Shown piece by piece: positions 12,242 through 24,702 of a DNA stretch of 30,940 nt. Made by a program: the position numbers and the translations under genes. The notes under the pieces were generated by a model. The model worked only from the letters and a program-made list of their open reading frames with translations, made no database searches and was not told the DNA's origin. How positions within the stretch are numbered: the first letter of the stretch is position 1; every line of letters starts with the position of its first letter. The stretch is from a virus, in the IMG/VR virus record IMGVR_UViG_3300031240_000034, positions 1 through 30,940 of that record, one strand, 5' to 3'.

Positions 12242-13108
12242 GTGAACATCGTCTTGAGCAGCGGCATGCCAAGGTCAGGCAGTACGCTATTGCAAAACTT
12301 GCTAGCCCAGCATCCGAACCATCATTGCACAAGCACGAATGACCTAATCGATATGCTGATGGTGGTTCGTGACCGATGGATGACATGCACCGGATTCGTT
12401 GCACAAGGGCTTGCCAAAATAGAGCCGCGAATTAAAGCGATGATGCGTAATATGGTTTTTGGCTTTTACGAGATGGAATTCAACGCTGGAAAAATTGTGT
12501 TTGATAAGAGTCGTGGTTGGCTGTCCAACCTTGAATTGATCGAACAAGTTCTTGAACGTCCGGTCAAGGTTATCGTCCCTATTCGCGACATTCGGGATAT
12601 TATTGCCAGTTTCGAGAAGATTTTCCGTAAATCATCCTTGACCGATCATGCGGTGCAAGGACCAGAAAGTTTTCAGCGTTTGACGGTTCAAGGTCGTGCT
12701 GAGCGATTGTTAGCTATTGAAAAGACGGTTGGCTATATGGCACACTGTATTGCGGACGCATTTGAGAGGGGATTGGGGGATCGCTTAGTTGTCGTGCCAT
12801 ACTGGGAATTGACGCATCATCCCGTAAAGACGATTGAACGTGTATGCTTCGAGTGTGGTATTGAACCGTTCGTTTGCAATCCGTTCAATGTGGAACAGGT
12901 AACGCAAGAGGACGATACCGTTTATGGAATGCAACTTCATACGGTAAGGAAGAGCGTGGAACCTGATTGCGGCTATTCTTGGAACGGGATTATTCCTGAC
13001 GTTCTAGCCGATGCGATTAGTAACGCCTTTCCGTTCATTCAGGAATTGGCCAGTAAGAAGTATCTTGCACGCGAACATTATACACCGATGGCTACTTTAT
13101 CTATTTGA
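12242..13108 (+). CDS. PAPS-dependent sulfotransferase family protein
   Basis: A 288-residue P-loop protein. The 5'-phosphosulfate loop is at residues ~8-18 (GMPRSGSTLLQ), and the 3'-phosphate-binding region is VIVPIRDIRDIIASF (~109-123). This matches the sulfotransferase fold that moves sulfate from PAPS to a sugar, lipid or protein hydroxyl. Start GTG 12242. There is no signal peptide. It sits inside the virion block, between MuF and small structural genes, not in the glycan block on the other strand, suggesting that it modifies a virion component or is co-expressed late. Length is usual for bacterial members. The acceptor is unknown. Confidence 0.8.
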   Translation: MNIVLSSGMPRSGSTLLQNLLAQHPNHHCTSTNDLIDMLMVVRDRWMTCTGFVAQGLAKIEPRIKAMMRNMVFGFYEMEFNAGKIVFDKSRGWLSNLELIEQVLERPVKVIVPIRDIRDIIASFEKIFRKSSLTDHAVQGPESFQRLTVQGRAERLLAIEKTVGYMAHCIADAFERGLGDRLVVVPYWELTHHPVKTIERVCFECGIEPFVCNPFNVEQVTQEDDTVYGMQLHTVRKSVEPDCGYSWNGIIPDVLADAISNAFPFIQELASKKYLAREHYTPMATLSI

Positions 13109-16226: not shown

Positions 16227-16556
16227 ATGGCCGTTGGCCCAGTCGTTGTCGGCAGTACGTACCTGTGGTCACCTACCTTTCTCAAGGACGGGGCAATCTA
16301 CGATTTGACCGGAGCAACGGCAACGGTCAATTTCCTTGACCCGAACGGCAACGTTTACACGTTCACGATGGTGATTCCCACTCCGACAAACGGGAAAGCA
16401 CTCTACCAAAATTTAACGTCGCTCTTTACTATCGTCGGTGAAAGCGGCAGTCAGTTCGCTCAGTGGTATCGCTCGTACAAGGTGGTTGTGGGCAGCGTCG
16501 TGCTGGAATCAGCTCCGATACCGTTTCCGGTTTACAAGTCCGTTTCGGGGGCGTGA
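16227..16556 (+). CDS. Small beta-sandwich protein, BppU-like baseplate/tail component
   Basis: A 109-residue protein with GAIYDLTGATATVNFLDPNG, the pattern (D-L-T-G-x-T-h-x-h...P-x-G) seen at the N-terminus of BppU/DUF2479-type baseplate proteins and similar Ig-like phage modules. The remaining sequence alternates hydrophobic strands and ends in a tail-like segment (PIPFPVYKSVSGA). It begins 3 nt after the propeller gene, and its stop overlaps the ATG of the next gene (16556), so it is probably made together with the propeller. The exact role is unknown. Confidence 0.55.
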   Translation: MAVGPVVVGSTYLWSPTFLKDGAIYDLTGATATVNFLDPNGNVYTFTMVIPTPTNGKALYQNLTSLFTIVGESGSQFAQWYRSYKVVVGSVVLESAPIPFPVYKSVSGA

Positions 16557-17338
16557 TGTTCAATATTGTTGACGATTTCGTTGATCGATTAGCCGATGAT
16601 ATCGGCGTATCCTTGTCGCTCAGTGGCGAGCCGTCGCCGCTGATTGATCGGTTCGTGAACGCATGTCTGTCTGACGAAGATGGCAAGTGGATCACGATTG
16701 GCGGGAAATCGGAAGGCGATAAGGGGAAGCATGTCGGCGGCTTTCGCGTGCAGATTAACGGCGACGGAAAGATTATCAAGGGGCGGTTGAAAGGGACGAA
16801 CGTTAAGGACGTAAAGAAGCGGTTTGACGAGGGTAAGAATCGCGGTACGCCGATACGCGATAAGCAAGAAACCAGCAACATTCCTCATTTTATGAAAAAT
16901 GTAAAAAATACTGTTGACAATTCTAGGAAGGATGCTAATATAGAAGGGACGGCAGCGAAAGAGACTGCCGGGAATGATGATGCGAAAGGGACGAAAATGG
17001 AAACCGCCAACATGACTCCTAACCAAGAAATTAAATTCCGCCAAGATAAGTCGTATGGCGAGATAATGAAATCTTTGCCAAAGTTGGAAGGGTCTGAAAA
17101 GCAGGTGTCTTGGGCAAATAAAATTCGCGACACCAAGCTTGAACATCTGACGAGAAACATCGTGTCTCGCGAAATGCAACTCGTCACGATAACTAGCGAA
17201 AATCAACGAAAAAGATACGATGTTCGCGTGTCTCAGTTGAAAAAAACACTGTCTGATGTTTTGTCGAAAACCGCTGCGAAATTTTGGATTGATTCGCGAG
17301 ATAGCGATTTGACAGCGGAACCAGAAGAAAATTACTAA
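16556..17338 (+). CDS. Modular cargo protein: shared N-terminal module, WITIGG motif, GSEKQ-type C-terminal domain
   Basis: The start is ATG 16556, overlapping the previous stop. Residues ~1-40 are the shared module (NIVDDFVDRL... LIDRFVNACLS). GKWITIGG...GKHVGGF (~43-63) and DGKIIKGRLKG follow. Residues ~115-147 are encoded by a DNA cassette that also looks like a sigma-70 promoter, hairpin and ribosome binding site. The C-terminal domain (~148-260) has LPKLEGSEKQVSWANKIR and AAKFWIDSRD, a small module I associate with phage and plasmid polyvalent proteins. An internal ATG at 16997 after AAAGGG would give the C-terminal domain alone (113 aa). The N-terminal half is nearly duplicated at 18553. 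Confidence 0.7.
   Translation: MFNIVDDFVDRLADDIGVSLSLSGEPSPLIDRFVNACLSDEDGKWITIGGKSEGDKGKHVGGFRVQINGDGKIIKGRLKGTNVKDVKKRFDEGKNRGTPIRDKQETSNIPHFMKNVKNTVDNSRKDANIEGTAAKETAGNDDAKGTKMETANMTPNQEIKFRQDKSYGEIMKSLPKLEGSEKQVSWANKIRDTKLEHLTRNIVSREMQLVTITSENQRKRYDVRVSQLKKTLSDVLSKTAAKFWIDSRDSDLTAEPEENY
16562..16870 (+). repeat. Duplicated gene segment, copy 1 (partner 18571-18879)
   Basis: About 309 bp match the partner at an offset of 2009 bp. The first 104 bp (16562-16665) are identical in the two copies; later differences are mostly at third codon positions. The pattern fits a duplication followed by gene conversion or recombination at the 5' end. Confidence 0.9.
16914..16999 (+). promoter_or_regulatory. 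In-frame sigma-70-like promoter, hairpin leader and RBS (copy 1)
   Basis: TTGACA (16914-16919), a 16-nt spacer, and TAATAT (16936-16941) with an extended -10 TG at 16933-16934 form a near-consensus promoter. Downstream lie a hairpin CGGCAG/CTGCCG (16950-16955 with 16965-16970) and AAAGGG six bases before ATG 16997. All of it is read through in frame by the gene starting at 16556. It should produce a transcript for the C-terminal domain only. Confidence 0.65.
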
Positions 17339-17339
17339 G

Positions 17340-18569
17340 ATGCCAAACACCTTCGGCACAACCAAGACGCAAGTCAAGCTGATCGATCCTCGCGATGCTC
17401 GTCGCTATCGTCAGCGATTTCGTCGCGACATGATCCCTCAGCTTGAGCTTGCGAACAGCCTCTATTGCCCGCTCGGTCGATTCCCGACGCGAGGATGGAT
17501 CTTGCTCACTCGCGGCGATTACGATCTCGTGCGAGGGTATGGCACGAACTATACGCTTAATTTCGCTGATGTCTTGGATGGAACGAACCTCACTTTTCAA
17601 AACCTCTCCATCGTGCAAGCCAAGTGCGTAACGACCGGCATCATCGACGATCCGGCGGCTATCTATCTGGTCGAGCTAACCGACCTGCGCGGCATCCTTT
17701 GGAATCAGTGGTTTCAATTCCCCGTTGAAAGCTATTACAACGTCCTTTCGCCAGCTTACCCAGACCTTCACTACGCCGATAGCCTTAACGCCGGTTCGCC
17801 ATTTTCTTGGCAAACAATGGTCGCTGACATGTGGTCATTGCTGGGCCTAGGATCGTTTCCAGGGCTTCCGAGTGCTCCGGCGAGTATTCCGACGAATTGG
17901 AACTTGCCTGGCGTGCACGGTTGGCCCAGGCTTTGCGATATGCTCTATCACGTCGGGATGAGTGTTTCGGTTGATCCGACTTCGCTTACGCCGTATGGCA
18001 TCGTTGAGAACGGTGATGACGACGCTAATTTCGATGCGTTGACGGCGAAATATCTCAAGGCGAACAAGTTGGAGGATGACCTGAATTGGATCGATATTGG
18101 ATCGGGTCGCGTCCCTGGCATAGTCATCGTTTACTTTCGCCGCGTCAATCAGTATTACGGCACGGAAGAGACTATTCGTCGCGATAGCGGGCAGTGGGCT
18201 ACGAACTCTGTTTATCCGATCGCCGTTGCCGCTCCCTCATCGTTTGCCGGGGCGGTTGGCACGCATGGCATGTTCGATGATTATCCGATCCGTTTTGACG
18301 TGGATGGCAACCCACTCGCTGCCGACGTGATTGAGGCGACGGCGATTGCGACGGAGCGGGTGCAACAATACTTTGACGATATTTATTCGCGGACTTCCGG
18401 ATATCTTAATCGCACCTACACAGGCATCTTGCCGTTCTTCCCCGGCTCGCAGATCGACGGCGTTTGCTGGCGGCAAGATTTCCGCGATCAAGATCGGGAA
18501 GGGTTCAGGACGCAGATTTTGCGTGGTCCTCTTTGGCCAGAGGTTTATCCGGATGCTCCGAAGCATTAA
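17340..18569 (+). CDS. Uncharacterised virion protein, probably baseplate or tail hub (409 aa)
   Basis: The gene starts 1 nt after the previous stop with a weak purine-rich site upstream. The product is aromatic- and Pro-rich with repeated beta strands (DYDLVRGYGTNYTLNFAD, VPGIVIVYFRRVNQYYG) and an N-terminal basic segment (DARRYRQRFRRDMIP). Such composition is common in tail-tip or baseplate proteins, but no family is recognised. It lies between the two duplicated cargo genes, and its last 17 nt overlap the next gene (ATG 18553). Confidence 0.55.
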   Translation: MPNTFGTTKTQVKLIDPRDARRYRQRFRRDMIPQLELANSLYCPLGRFPTRGWILLTRGDYDLVRGYGTNYTLNFADVLDGTNLTFQNLSIVQAKCVTTGIIDDPAAIYLVELTDLRGILWNQWFQFPVESYYNVLSPAYPDLHYADSLNAGSPFSWQTMVADMWSLLGLGSFPGLPSAPASIPTNWNLPGVHGWPRLCDMLYHVGMSVSVDPTSLTPYGIVENGDDDANFDALTAKYLKANKLEDDLNWIDIGSGRVPGIVIVYFRRVNQYYGTEETIRRDSGQWATNSVYPIAVAAPSSFAGAVGTHGMFDDYPIRFDVDGNPLAADVIEATAIATERVQQYFDDIYSRTSGYLNRTYTGILPFFPGSQIDGVCWRQDFRDQDREGFRTQILRGPLWPEVYPDAPKH

Positions 18570-19647
18570 TAATATTGTTGACGATTTCGTTGATCGATTA
18601 GCCGATGATATCGGCGTATCCTTGTCGCTCAGTGGCGAGCCGTCGCCGCTGATTGATCGGTTCGTGAACGCATGCCTGTCCGACGAGAGCGGCAAGTGGA
18701 TCACGATTGGCGGCAAGTCAGAAGTCAATAAGGGGAAGCATGTCGGCGGCTTCCGCGTGCAGATTGATGGCGATGGGAAGATTATCAAAGGGCGGCTGAA
18801 AGGCACGAACGTGAAGGACGTAAAGAAGCGGTTTGACGAAGGAAAGAATCGTGGCGAGCCGATACGCGAGAAGGAAGAGGGGAATCGGATGCCTGCGTTC
18901 ATGAAAAACAAGAAATCCGAAGAATCAGTAAAAAATACTGTTGACAACTCTAGGAAGGATGCTAATATAGAAGGGACGGCAGCGAAAGAGACTGCCGGGA
19001 ATGAAGATGCGAAAGGGACGAAAATGAAGAATGTTGACAACTCTAGGAAGGATGCTAATATAGAAGGGACGGCAGCGAAAGAGACTGCCGGGAATGAAGA
19101 TGCGAAAGGGACGAAAATGGAAACAAAAAAAATAGTCAGAAACACCTCGTCAAGCAAGGTTGATGATTATACGACTGGAAGCGTAATTATTCATGACGGA
19201 GACTACTACGTAGTTACAAGTGTCAATCGCCGATCTGACGATCATGGCGGATACTCTTACCAGATGACGGCAAGGACAGCCACTGAAAAAGAATCGCGAC
19301 GTAAGAGAAAGGAAATGTTAATCAAGTCGCTGAGGGGAAACGAAAACGTTCACAACCTTGCTTACGAAGCAGACAAGGAGTTTGACAGAGAAACCAGAAA
19401 AAAAATCAATGAAATTGAAAAACAAGAACATAACGATAGTCTTGTTGCGTGGCGAAAGCAAGCTGAAGAAAAAATGTCCGGCAAACTCACCCCAGAAGCG
19501 ATTTCTGAAATAACCAACCTTATCGATGGACCAAACTATACGTTTAGAGACGTCACCGAACTAATCAAAGATGCTTTAGGAAACCCTGATGCTTTTGAAG
19601 CTGAAGATTTTCCAGCTTTGATGGCATCTCACAAAAAAAATAAGTAA
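18553..19647 (+). CDS. Modular cargo protein: shared N-terminal module with tandem promoter cassette and distinct C-terminus
   Basis: The start is ATG 18553 (AGAGG at about 18538-18542), 17 nt inside the previous gene; the longer open frame upstream lies within that gene. Residues ~1-125 nearly repeat the 16556 protein (shared module, GKWITIGG, GKHVGGF). Two in-frame 31-residue repeats follow (~130-190), encoded by the promoter-like DNA cassette. The C-terminal cargo (~190-364) starts METKKIVRN, has a strand-rich part (SVIIHDGDYYVVTSVNRR) and a long charged helix. ATG 19117 after AAAGGG would give it alone as 176 residues. I do not recognise the cargo. It is the last gene of the plus-strand arm. 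Confidence 0.7.
   Translation: MLRSINNIVDDFVDRLADDIGVSLSLSGEPSPLIDRFVNACLSDESGKWITIGGKSEVNKGKHVGGFRVQIDGDGKIIKGRLKGTNVKDVKKRFDEGKNRGEPIREKEEGNRMPAFMKNKKSEESVKNTVDNSRKDANIEGTAAKETAGNEDAKGTKMKNVDNSRKDANIEGTAAKETAGNEDAKGTKMETKKIVRNTSSSKVDDYTTGSVIIHDGDYYVVTSVNRRSDDHGGYSYQMTARTATEKESRRKRKEMLIKSLRGNENVHNLAYEADKEFDRETRKKINEIEKQEHNDSLVAWRKQAEEKMSGKLTPEAISEITNLIDGPNYTFRDVTELIKDALGNPDAFEAEDFPALMASHKKNK
18571..18879 (+). repeat. Duplicated gene segment, copy 2 (partner 16562-16870)
   Basis: Its first 104 bp are identical to 16562-16665, and the remainder differs mainly at synonymous positions. It encodes the shared N-terminal module and WITIGG region of the second cargo gene. Confidence 0.9.
18941..19126 (+). 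repeat. Two tandem 93-bp copies of the in-frame promoter cassette
   Basis: Copies start at 18941 and 19034, exactly 31 codons apart. Each holds TTGACA (18941-18946; 19034-19039), a 16-nt spacer, TAATAT (18963-18968; 19056-19061) with upstream TG, a CGGCAG/CTGCCG hairpin, and AAAGGG before an in-frame ATG (19024; 19117). The cassette is nearly identical to the one at 16914. Frame is kept throughout. Confidence 0.85.
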
Positions 19648-20956: not shown

Positions 20957-21147
20957 AGATCAGTCCTGTGCAAACTAATAAACTGCGTTTTTTTACATAC
21001 CGGACATTGAATCAAGAAAGTTGATTCTTTGTGGTATTCTACATCCTCGTACAGGCAATAAATATCCGTGTAACACGTCGGACATGTTCCTTGCATTGGC
21101 GTGTCTTTTTTAAGTTTTTTATTTTCGTTAACACTGATTTTTATCAT
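20953..21147 (-). CDS. Small zinc-ribbon protein (64 aa)
   Basis: Starting at ATG 21147 (overlapping the thyX stop as ATGA), the product has two Cys pairs, TCPTCY and QCPVCKK, about 25 residues apart, the classical zinc-ribbon spacing. A longer start at 21165 would lie inside thyX and is less likely. The stop overlaps the next ATG (20956). Such small ribbons often act as protein- or nucleic acid-binding adaptors; the partner is unknown. Confidence 0.75.
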   Translation of the reverse strand: MIKISVNENKKLKKDTPMQGTCPTCYTDIYCLYEDVEYHKESTFLIQCPVCKKTQFISLHRTDL

Positions 21148-21833
21148 AGCTTGAATAACCCCCATGTTCGTGGAAACTTTTCCGAGATAATCTTGCCAAT
21201 CTCATTGGCAAATTGCCGTATTTCCCATTGAGCTTTTTCATCCATGCGAAGCGTAAGAAACGCAAGCCAGTTGCGAAGATTGGTACATGCACGCATTCGA
21301 CTGTATCGACCAACTGGGACAGGCAGACGAGCTACTTCTTTCGGAATGCCGCGTCGCAAACCGCTTCGATACACTCGCTCGGCGTGTTCATACAAGTCAG
21401 CAAGTTCGCATAACCAAGCGAGTGCTGCTTCGTGAGTTATCAAGTCGGAACCTTTGATAGCTCCTGCCTGTTTGTTCGTGCCGCTAACCGAAAGGCAACG
21501 CTCAACGGTTGGCATATAATTGGCGTATGGCAATGGAGTGTAACGCGCAGACATTTCGTTATAAGATTGAGTTCTATGCCTGTGCCATTCCCTGAATACA
21601 ACAATCGGGGCTTGCACCTCGATTACCATGCCTGCCATTTCAAACGGCGTTGCGTGTTTGTTTGTGTAAAGGTACTCAAGCAATCCTTGATCGCCTTTTG
21701 GATGCCCTTCGTATGGTTCCCAGGAAACGAACCCCTTGTCTGTTGACATGCGAGCCGCTTCGATGATGCTCATGTCGCTGCCCCATCCTTCGATGAATTC
21801 AAGGTATCCGTGATCGAGGACTTTTGTTCGCAT
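21144..21833 (-). CDS. thyX: Flavin-dependent thymidylate synthase ThyX
   Basis: A 229-residue protein with the complete ThyX signature RHRTQSYNEMSARY (residues 85-98, R-H-R-x(3)-x-N-E-x-S-x-R-Y type), AARMSTDKG (26-34) and the H-x-TPFEM segment (60-66). ThyX makes dTMP from dUMP using methylene-tetrahydrofolate and FAD/NADPH, acting in the cytoplasm as a tetramer. Phages use it to feed DNA replication. AAGGAA precedes ATG 21833. The start lies 64 nt inside the DUF3310 gene and the stop overlaps the zinc-ribbon ATG, so it belongs to the long minus-strand operon. Length and motifs are normal. Confidence 0.97.
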   Translation of the reverse strand: MRTKVLDHGYLEFIEGWGSDMSIIEAARMSTDKGFVSWEPYEGHPKGDQGLLEYLYTNKHATPFEMAGMVIEVQAPIVVFREWHRHRTQSYNEMSARYTPLPYANYMPTVERCLSVSGTNKQAGAIKGSDLITHEAALAWLCELADLYEHAERVYRSGLRRGIPKEVARLPVPVGRYSRMRACTNLRNWLAFLTLRMDEKAQWEIRQFANEIGKIISEKFPRTWGLFKL

Positions 21834-23001: not shown

Positions 23002-23043
23002 GGCAGCAAAACCAGCATCGGTTGCATCAACTCTCTCGCTGCC
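23002..23043 (-). repeat. TIGR-like unit 7
   Basis: Stem GGCAGC/GCTGCC (6 bp). Spacer A GAGAGTTGA (23027-23035), central TGCAACCGA (23018-23026), spacer B TGCTGGTTT (23009-23017). It is followed by TGTTTTT. Confidence 0.88.
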
Positions 23044-23052
23044 GTTAGTTTA

Positions 23053-23100
23053 ATTGCCAGCACATCGGCACTCGGTTGCAAGCCTATGGTCGCTGGCAAT
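23053..23100 (-). repeat. TIGR-like unit 6
   Basis: The longest stem, ATTGCCAGC/GCTGGCAAT (9 bp). Spacer A is CCATAGGCT, the centre is TGCAACCGA, and spacer B is GTGCCGATG. Confidence 0.9.
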
Positions 23101-23103
23101 ATT

Positions 23104-23967
23104 TCATGCGGCAATGACGCATTCGGTTACATTGCCCAAATCGCCGCAATAAGCGTACTCATGACTTCCACCATTCCACTCAATCCAAAGATGCTTGAGC
23201 AGCATCTTTGTCGCCAACAGCATGGCGTGCCGATGACAACGAAGCGGTTTCCAATCCGGGTGATTGACTTGAGCCGCTGCTTTCGCTGAATCATACCGTG
23301 AGCGATAAGGCCCAGCAAAAGAAGTCTCGATTTCACAGGAGCTCTCGCTGTTATCGCTCACGGTATTTTGCTTAACGATGCCTTCTCCGATCAAGAATGC
23401 GATTGATCGCCGACGCGGGGAATAACCAAATTGCTTCCATTCGGATGATGGCAACTTGCCTTCTTTCTTTGATCGCCACGTTGCACCCATCAGCGTCTTT
23501 CCGTCAAATGAGTGCGGAGCACATCCGAGCCGACGCCAGACTTTTGCAGGATTGGCATAGCCGGAAAGATCGCCGGTTTCGCCAATGACGATAGCAAGGA
23601 ACAGCAAGCCGAATCCCCGTTGCTCTGGCCGATGAACCCACTCTGCGACCGGCAATTTCTTGGCACGCGAGACCATGCTTTTCTCGATACTCTTCTTGAT
23701 TTCCTCAAAGGCGTCAATGCCGATCAAGGTAGTCTTGATGACTAGTCTAAGCTTGTGGCTCGCTTCATCATTGGCAACAGCACTGATAACGTCGGCAGCT
23801 TCCTTAAACTTCTTCATTCGCTCTTTTTTTGGCATTCCGCTATGGTAGCCGAGTGTGCCCGCAACTACGGCTTGCAGTCGATTAGCCTGCATGTTGCGAG
23901 ACTTGAGGATGATGCTTCGCTCACGCTGTAGAGATTGCAGGTCCGCAGAGATTTTTGCTGTTGTCAT
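23104..23967 (-). CDS. tasA: Tas-like Nop/Transposase_20 protein, nuclease-less, TIGR array-associated
   Basis: ATG 23967 (GGGG upstream) gives 287 residues; the frame is open further upstream, but only through array units. Residues ~8-110 are a long charged helical region, likely coiled coil. Residues ~117-200 are the Transposase_20 domain of IS110-type transposases (GLLFLAIVIGETGDLSGYANP, WRRLGCAP, YSPRRRSIAFLIGE), which is related to the Nop domain of box C/D RNP proteins. Residues 244-264 (CHRHAML...LKHLWIEW) form a conserved C-terminal helix. The DEDD/RuvC half of real IS110 transposases is absent and no HNH is seen. It lies between two groups of dual-spacer units, as in TIGR-Tas systems. 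The last 14 residues are encoded by unit 5. Likely role: an RNA-guided DNA-binding protein that uses the array transcripts. Confidence 0.85.
   Translation of the reverse strand: MTTAKISADLQSLQRERSIILKSRNMQANRLQAVVAGTLGYHSGMPKKERMKKFKEAADVISAVANDEASHKLRLVIKTTLIGIDAFEEIKKSIEKSMVSRAKKLPVAEWVHRPEQRGFGLLFLAIVIGETGDLSGYANPAKVWRRLGCAPHSFDGKTLMGATWRSKKEGKLPSSEWKQFGYSPRRRSIAFLIGEGIVKQNTVSDNSESSCEIETSFAGPYRSRYDSAKAAAQVNHPDWKPLRCHRHAMLLATKMLLKHLWIEWNGGSHEYAYCGDLGNVTECVIAA
23107..23148 (-). repeat. TIGR-like unit 5, inside the 3' end of tas
   Basis: Stem TGCGGC/GCCGCA (6 bp). Spacer A is TTTGGGCAA, the centre is TGTAACCGA, and spacer B is ATGCGTCAT. The 42 bp are also the last 14 codons of tas, immediately before the stop at 23104-23106. 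Confidence 0.88.
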
Positions 23968-23986
23968 TTTTTCCCCGTCTAAAAAT

Positions 23987-24026
23987 GCGTCAATCAAGCA
24001 TTCGGTTACACGGTGCGTTGCGACGC
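23987..24026 (-). repeat. TIGR-like unit 4
   Basis: Stem GCGTC/GACGC (5 bp). Spacer A is AACGCACCG, the centre TGTAACCGA is at 24002-24010, and spacer B is ATGCTTGAT. This unit has GC in place of GA after the stem. It is followed by ATTTTTAGA before the tas ribosome binding site. Confidence 0.85.
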
Positions 24027-24036
24027 CTTGGTTTGA

Positions 24037-24080
24037 TGCCAGCATAACGACTTTCGGTTGCAAAGGCCCGCTCGCTGGCA
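24037..24080 (-). repeat. TIGR-like unit 3
   Basis: Stem TGCCAGC/GCTGGCA (7 bp). Spacer A is GCGGGCCTT, the centre is TGCAACCGA, and spacer B is AAGTCGTTA. Confidence 0.9.
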
Positions 24081-24089
24081 AATACAATA

Positions 24090-24131
24090 GGCGGCAACTC
24101 GGCTTTCGGTTACATACACGAAATCGCCACC
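24090..24131 (-). repeat. TIGR-like unit 2
   Basis: Stem GGTGGC/GCCGCC (6 bp with one T-G pair, as expected for RNA pairing). Spacer A is TTTCGTGTA, the centre is TGTAACCGA, and spacer B is AAGCCGAGT. Confidence 0.88.
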
Positions 24132-24140
24132 ATTGATTAA

Positions 24141-24184
24141 GTCCCGCAATCAAGTGATCGGTTACACGCCAGTATTCGCGGGAC
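24141..24184 (-). repeat. TIGR-like unit 1 (first in transcript)
   Basis: Stem GTCCCGC/GCGGGAC (7 bp). Spacer A is ATACTGGCG, the centre is TGTAACCGA, and spacer B is TCACTTGAT. It starts about 11 nt after the stop of the upstream gene. Confidence 0.9.
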
Positions 24185-24195
24185 GTTTCTCCGTG

Positions 24196-24702
24196 TCATC
24201 CGAAATTCATTTCGTTGCGGATGCGATCAAACTCTTTCTTGAGCTTCTTCTCGCTCAGCACTTCCTCAACACGTTTCTCAGCAGGAACAACTCCGCCAAG
24301 AAAAGACAAAAGGCGATGGTTGAACAAATGACCATTCGCAATAGTCAGTTCGCTCGTTGCTATCCTAAGAGCATCTTCGCCAGTCAGTTTGCCAAGGATC
24401 GACCCGCCGACCTTGTAGAGGTAAACTGATGCGTACGCTTCGTTGACGCAACCTTCAATCGGCCTCGATTTGTTGGTTGAATAGAACCCGTTGTCTTTCT
24501 TGAAATTCTCATTCCATTCGTGCCTGGCGCTGTAGACAAGCTCACGGATTGAGTGCGTAATGAGTTTCTCAACCAGAGAAGCGAATTCCGGCATCTTTCG
24601 TATTGCTGCTTCCGCTTCAGCAACAGCCGCTGGAATATCGTCAGGGTGGGCATCTCGTGCATCTCGTGCCGCCTTGACTATTTTCGGTGGATAATCAGCC
24701 AT
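24196..24702 (-). CDS. Hypothetical protein directly upstream of the TIGR-like array (168 aa)
   Basis: AAGGAG before ATG 24702 is a strong ribosome binding site. The protein is helical and soluble: an N-terminal basic/Ala-rich helix (PPKIVKAARDARDAHPDD), a middle section with Tyr/Asn (DNGFYSTNKS, NEAYASVYLYKVGG), and a charged C-terminal helix (KRVEEVLSEKKLKKEF). No family is recognised. Its stop lies 11 nt before unit 1, so it is probably co-transcribed with the array. It is not evident that it takes part in the system. Confidence 0.65.
   Translation of the reverse strand: MADYPPKIVKAARDARDAHPDDIPAAVAEAEAAIRKMPEFASLVEKLITHSIRELVYSARHEWNENFKKDNGFYSTNKSRPIEGCVNEAYASVYLYKVGGSILGKLTGEDALRIATSELTIANGHLFNHRLLSFLGGVVPAEKRVEEVLSEKKLKKEFDRIRNEMNFG

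Follow-up and report, generated by a model that had tools for sequence, protein, structure and literature searches.

Here we describe a TIGR-Tas locus in a 30,940-nt stretch of viral DNA (IMG/VR record IMGVR_UViG_3300031240_000034, positions 1 to 30,940), hereafter termed the window. From its sequence and a comparison with relatives, we consider it highly probable that the window carries a TIGR-TasA system of a tailed phage, which belongs to the stem-loop-array class, is RNA-guided and acts through the mechanism proposed below. On the minus strand a 168-aa gene (24196-24702) is followed by four hairpin units, a tasA-type gene of 287 aa (23104-23967) and two more units. In total, the array holds eight units, seven at 23002-24184 and one in the middle of the gene, all on the minus strand. 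An earlier reading of the same DNA, made from its letters and open reading frames and here called the original prediction, had proposed a TIGR-Tas-like system, and our analysis supports it at the level of the system, for a class that has been known since 2025.

Hairpin units and the Tas protein of the window

Each unit consists of a variable stem closed by a C-G pair and an interior of exactly 30 nt (2+9+9+9+1), made of GA (GC in unit 4), nine variable nucleotides, TG(T/C)AACCGA, nine further variable nucleotides and T. The unit cores are TGNAACCGA or TGAAATCGA, each lying between two 9-nt variable segments, or spacers. The pattern CGA-N9-TGNAACCGA-N9-TG has six exact matches in the window where 0.01 is expected from dinucleotide shuffles, and a scan requiring the stem returned seven units on the minus strand, none on the plus strand and none in 100 Markov resamplings. 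Because the stem always closes with C-G, the edges take the form ..CGA-spacer and spacer-UG.., and UG...CGA stands in the loop. The stem base and the loop of each unit both carry a box D and a matching box C (CGA/UG in both), as the published rule of box C/box D symmetry demands; this symmetry is attributed in the main text of Faure et al. (2025; PMC12045711) to the symmetric dimer in the TasR structure. Constant edge repeats of the dual-repeat TIGR type are absent; the window stems differ from unit to unit.

Upstream of the tasA-type gene, unit 1 (24141-24184) reads GTCCCGC GA atactggcg TGTAACCGA tcacttgat T GCGGGAC, unit 2 (24090-24131) GGTGGC GA tttcgtgta TGTAACCGA aagccgagt T GCCGCC, unit 3 (24037-24080) TGCCAGC GA gcgggcctt TGCAACCGA aagtcgtta T GCTGGCA, and unit 4 (23987-24026) GCGTC GC aacgcaccg TGTAACCGA atgcttgat T GACGC, the last with a box C of CGC, not CGA, and a weak fold (z -0.55). 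Unit 5 (23107-23148; TGCGGC GA tttgggcaa TGTAACCGA atgcgtcat T GCCGCA) coincides with the last 14 tas codons in reading phase 2, and beyond it lie unit 6 (23053-23100; ATTGCCAGC GA ccataggct TGCAACCGA gtgccgatg T GCTGGCAAT) and unit 7 (23002-23043; GGCAGC GA gagagttga TGCAACCGA tgctggttt T GCTGCC). The seven units that the original prediction had placed here are all present with their 30-nt interiors, but it had set them around the gene, of which unit 5 is a part, and it missed the eighth at 23293-23366. It had also arrived at a 36-nt guide by adding three stem bases per side to the interior, which is arithmetic and not evidence; units of stem arrays are reported to have variable ends, processing taking place at the linkers. 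Scans for sigma-70 promoters and terminators around the window array stayed at chance level, and Rfam gave no match.

The 287-aa protein is, judged by its sequence and structure model, a solo Nop-domain Tas protein of the TasA type with N-terminal coiled-coil helices. Searched singly against the PDB it returned coiled-coil noise only, so a family profile was needed; built from the window protein and 19 relatives, it matches PDB 9mty, a TasR complex, with an E-value of 9.4e-15. The NCBIfam model NF052498 (TIGR_Tas) matches 20 of 20 family members (best E-value 3.9e-41), the NCBIfam IS110 profile matches 18 of the 20 more weakly, and PHROG labels the family as 'transposase'. A Transposase_20 domain, which had been assigned to the protein at the outset, is found weakly in 7/20 members, but the window protein alone has no such Pfam match. 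An AlphaFold2 (AF2) model of the window protein (mean predicted local distance difference test score 85) contains long helices at residues 3-38 and 74-102. Fold comparison placed TasH (Z 14.6 over 204 residues, 3.2 Å) and TasR (Z 14.2 over 183 residues, 2.8 Å) at the top, followed by IS621 (Z 12.2) and then Nop5/Prp31 (near 8; Nop5 8.1); helical models can score Z 13 by chance, and the top rows here are one functional family, well separated. Together these comparisons mark a Tas protein with a Nop domain, akin to TasR/TasH and to the IS110 C-terminal domain. The N-terminal RuvC/HNH nuclease of TasR and TasH is lacking, as the 287 aa open directly with the first coiled-coil helix, and so is the N-terminal DEDD/RuvC catalytic domain of IS110, the AF2 helix beginning at residue 3. 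It is this want of space for a nuclease domain that points to the TasA type. As a separate observation, the Tas proteins of the A3 members L005, L007, L010 and L033 (loci of the survey below) have, between their GPY and HRH motifs, an inserted DnaJ-like zinc finger (CXXCXGXG).

Relatives and class assignment

Protein and unit-pattern searches of IMG/VR brought together relatives from a large family, which we surveyed as 83 distinct Tas loci; a scan of genome contigs found no relative. Interior length among these relatives is far from random, so that the original prediction withstands the check it had itself set for relatives: near tas, 97 stems closing C...TG enclose 30 nt against about six at other lengths, and the 17 stems with 31 nt come partly from the single locus L010, which uses that length. 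At least three units occur in 51 of the 83 loci, and in a protein-blind scan for the unit pattern the contigs with several matches almost all carry tas. In 136 sites selected by the core only, pairing at stem positions 1-6 clearly exceeds that of shuffled partners (62-71% against 34-36% at positions 3-6), so the edge repeats are replaced by sequence that is variable but palindromic. The box C at the edge and in the loop covaries by clade, GA occurring with CCGA, GT with CCGT (L003), and CA/CG with CCCA/CCCG (L011-L014); in cultured actinophages and a rhizobium phage, box D is CG at both the edge and the loop. The survey also contains a canonical dual-repeat TIGR array (L047, at 1600-2270) with a 36-nt period, edge TGNGAGCCA and loop TGAAAACCA, which is preceded by a RusA-like gene, followed directly by a Tas gene, and recurs in a near-identical contig from another sample (L048).

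Because of the interior length, the linkage to tas, the stem covariation and the box covariation in relatives, we place the window system in the stem-loop-array class. By these sequence features it is a member of the published class and not new in kind, since the variable-stem "stem-loop array" was described together with TIGR-Tas in the main text of Faure et al. (2025; PMC12045711). For this reason the claim of an unusual architecture, made at the outset, is weaker than it was put.

Some arrays of the survey depart from this layout. Locus L020 (contig 3300025289_000127, 3192-3511) has a six-unit stem array, with neither tas nor partner detected in the 22-kb contig; it is possibly an orphan that uses a Tas in trans, or the contig is incomplete. 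In L027/L032 (contig 3300037247_001044, 45.4-48.4 kb), a long array of more than 30 units repeats with a period of about 45; its short stem bases hardly vary, and it seems to be intermediate between stem-loop and dual-repeat arrays. In L003 (17310-20838), further GT-type units with GGCCGGC-like stems lie 7-11 kb downstream of tas, dispersed and not clustered.

In-frame units, spacer exchange and a conserved partner gene

The eighth window unit (23293-23366) reads CAGC GA gagctcctg TGAAATCGA gacttcttt T GCTG, with an interior of 30 nt in reading phase 2. It carries a further outer stem, a perfect 16-bp inverted repeat with a 4-nt bulge (minimum free energy -36.1 kcal/mol, z -6.8), and encodes amino acids 206-219 of Tas, a flexible loop where the certainty of the AF2 model is lowest (residues 210-213 below 50). 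Units are found at the same site in the tas genes of L001 and L003 (one each), L033 (three) and L038 (two), nearer the N-terminus in L084, L102, L117, L118 and L124, and near the C-terminus in L012, L013 and, as unit 5, in the window; in the phage Morrissey one unit follows the annotated start and precedes the first coiled-coil helix. In total, 15 units fall wholly within the conserved Tas core, distributed over 11 of the 83 loci, at a density of 0.263/kb against 0.046/kb in distant sense sequence, which served as the background; antisense counts were rejected for this purpose because they largely mirror true units. At a stem score of at least 10, there are four in-core units and none in the control. 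All 15 share reading phase 2 (xxT GNA ACC GAn), the only phase where the fixed bases can never form a stop. This bias shows that the open frame is maintained and is not proof of regulation. Guide units in the reading frame of their own effector suggest a simple feedback loop, which we weigh below.

The growth of the arrays can be followed in recent duplicates. In L001, two units have been tandemly duplicated over 150 bp, together with their linker and a terminator-like hairpin. The copies agree at 111 of 114 positions outside the spacers and at 9 of 36 within them, exactly what random sequence would give (Fisher P 7e-19). Other duplicates, in L002, L020, L045 and between window units 2-3 and 5-6, likewise combine conserved stems and loops with spacers that are for the most part unrelated, and so do the orthologous arrays of L012 and L013 (tas 82% identical); in all these gapped comparisons the aligner inflates spacer identity. 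In Morrissey, two long stems are reused on either side of tas with different spacers. The pairs L047/L048 and L020/L022 were dropped from this test as too near-identical to inform. Arrays thus show a pattern of duplication of whole units with linkers, in which the spacers are replaced and the surroundings kept. Among the closest pairs no partly changed spacers were found, which makes point mutation an unlikely route and leaves exchange, rewriting or homogenisation of the flanks as candidates. According to the main text of PMC12045711, the discoverers regard the origin of TIGR spacers, the growth of arrays and the role of nuclease-less TasA as open questions, and the question of array growth is now a concrete one, as recent duplicates keep all but the two spacers.

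The 168-aa gene (24196-24702) has homologues upstream of tas in relatives. All 16 close loci have a gene of about 165 aa immediately upstream of tas, encoded on the same strand, and after profile iteration the partner was found in 70 of 92 loci, with several of the remaining loci truncated upstream. Distant versions are backed by profile comparison (E-value 8e-5, over the C-terminal 60 residues), and two products encoded upstream of tas in cultured phages, Rich gp51 and Morrissey gp43, resemble the partner by eye and were not recovered by the profile. The partner has no match in Pfam, PHROG, NCBIfam, PADLOC or the PDB, and its model matches no solved structure, an absent match that does not establish a new fold. 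TIGR systems are generally described in the main text of PMC12045711 as having one protein, with occasional ParB-like partners, and a partner kept across most of a clade revises the one-protein view published there. The in-tas units, the spacer replacement in duplicates and this partner gene are all missing from that main text, as is a near-constant loop of fixed length 9, and the novelty of the first three is subject to the supplement of the paper.

Cultured carriers of tas and stem arrays are Mycobacterium phage Rich (L134, KY224000.1, gp50-51), Gordonia phage Morrissey (L135, MH271305.1, gp42-43) and Rhizobium phage RHph_X2_25 (L132, MW960032.1). In all three, tas and the partner are annotated as hypothetical proteins and units overlap annotated starts of coding sequences. 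In Rich the two genes form a 1.62-kb block, in place of which phage EastView9101 has 247 bp between the same flanking helicase and exonuclease genes; the Morrissey pair is likewise missing from the matching place in Nocardia phage NS-I. Such sequenced and cultivable carriers make the questions raised here testable in ordinary laboratory hosts.

The window itself is a tailed-phage record, with matches to a Mu-type portal, a minor head protein and a tape-measure protein. It also has a cargo cluster that is unusual for a phage (19661-20956, 22033-22923 and 26903-30787, minus strand), with an HldE-like kinase/cytidylyltransferase, a heptosyltransferase-like GT9 enzyme, a radical SAM protein, two methyltransferases and a GT2-like enzyme, and encodes ThyX (21144-21833) and a sulfotransferase (12242-13108). 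Four plus-strand open reading frames (956-1387, 1740-2474, 16463-17338 and 18331-19647) have in common a repeated N-terminal motif, ..IVDDFV.RL...LIDRFV.ACLS...GK, and the segments 16562-16999 and 18571-19026 are 86% identical in DNA.

Proposed mechanism, alternatives and known systems

By homology to TasR and TasH, we propose that the array transcript would be cut at the linkers into single hairpins, each of which would be gripped by a TasA dimer via its two box C/D pairs. An 18-bp DNA site (5'-A.rc(B)-3') would then be opened and bent as each of its strands pairs with a different spacer, one with A and the other with B. Because there is no nuclease, competing mobile elements or phages would probably be blocked in their transcription, replication or maintenance. 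Excision of the two in-frame guides should destroy or sequester the tas mRNA; with two units in the tas frame, guide production would be paid for in tas mRNA, and feedback on Tas is predicted. Taken further, this would give a self-limiting guide system in which tigRNAs are excised from the tas mRNA and a dedicated process, possibly involving the partner, rewrites both spacers of new duplicates. We put this forward tentatively and as rather doubtful; if true, it would be adaptation without Cas1/Cas2.

Several results weigh against our reading of the locus. The window protein scores 57.3 bits (E-value 2e-15) against NF052498, whose curated cut-off is 100, although the model describes the TIGR-Tas endonuclease and its cut-off is no defining trait of TasA. 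Searches for A.rc(B) sites, an orientation derived from the published 8-nt 3' overhang and not taken from a figure, gave nothing above chance in the loci's own contigs (gap 0-2 nt, at most three mismatches), across relatives (at most two mismatches), or in Morrissey (complete genome) and Rich (first 50 kb). No target was found for two window units in IMG/VR (exact, ungapped) or for four cultured-phage units in INPHARED, and the in-tas insertions may simply be tolerated and have no regulatory role. Nor did other spacer orders give a signal in own contigs. Since no target was found, the biological role is one that we infer. The original prediction had suggested a working system for phage competition or gene control, and most plausibly we would see a nuclease-less RNA-guided DNA binder, directed against competing elements or serving to control expression.

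The want of a DNA target also fits a ribonucleoprotein that targets RNA in the manner of box C/D small RNPs, with its two 9-nt guides on host or rival-phage transcripts, as do the Nop fold common to Nop5 and Prp31 and the sno-like hairpins. We regard this as improbable, given that the closest structures are the DNA-targeting TasH and TasR and IS621, that TasR does not cleave RNA substrates according to the main text of PMC12045711, and that no fibrillarin or L7Ae gene was noticed beside tas in the open reading frames read, where no search was aimed at them. The IS110 matches and the PHROG label would suit a degenerate IS110-type transposase that retains a remnant resembling bridge RNA, with no guide system at all. 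The lack of the N-terminal DEDD/RuvC domain in the AF2 model, the better fit to TasR and TasH than to IS621, and the conservation, in more than 50 loci, of many tandem variable-spacer units next to an intact gene make such a relic extremely improbable. Hardly more credible is that the hairpins are DNA or RNA palindromes (protein sites, or recombination or processing signals) with the 9-nt segments as filler of fixed length: the stems do covary and the units themselves duplicate, but both the box symmetry and the fixed 9/9/9 spacing change in step with the Tas clade, and the 9-nt segments, different in every unit, are replaced more quickly than any of the bases around them.

The RNA-guided TIGR-TasA reading is compatible with either view of the in-tas units, and only its feedback step is at stake if these are chance or passive insertions that do not regulate Tas. 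We give passive insertion close to an even chance, falling slightly short of it. The mid-gene unit of the window sits in a flexible loop, and such units occur in a small part of the surveyed loci; against this stand their enrichment over other sequence, the strong fold of that window copy, their occurrence at several sites across loci and their confinement to the sole stop-free frame, though the phase by itself tells no more than that an open frame is maintained.

Among known systems, archaeal and eukaryotic box C/D sRNPs (Nop5/Prp31) have in common with the window a Nop fold and double guides bounded by box C/D in hairpins, but no K-turn partner or methylase is known here, and the nearest relatives act on DNA. 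IS110/IS1111 transposases with their bridge RNA have a Nop-like C-terminal fold and a split guide that pairs with both DNA strands, as we propose here; the window, however, has no catalytic DEDD domain, shows no element ends, and has many units instead of one two-loop RNA. Dual-repeat TIGR arrays with TasA, TasR or TasH resemble it in their 9-nt spacers, UG...C-type boxes and Nop protein, whereas the window has variable stems for constant edge repeats and no nuclease domain. In the TasParB operons described in the main text of PMC12045711 a second gene is likewise operonic with tasA, but the window partner has no ParB match in any library. Closest in layout is the TIGR-TasA stem-loop array of a Peromyscus leucopus gut contig, as presented in the same text, with a solo Nop protein, hairpin sub-arrays and variable palindromes in place of edge repeats. 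In comparison, the window clade has a loop fixed at 9 with near-constant sequence across a wide clade, and adds a conserved partner, units inside tas and the exchange of spacers in fresh duplicates.
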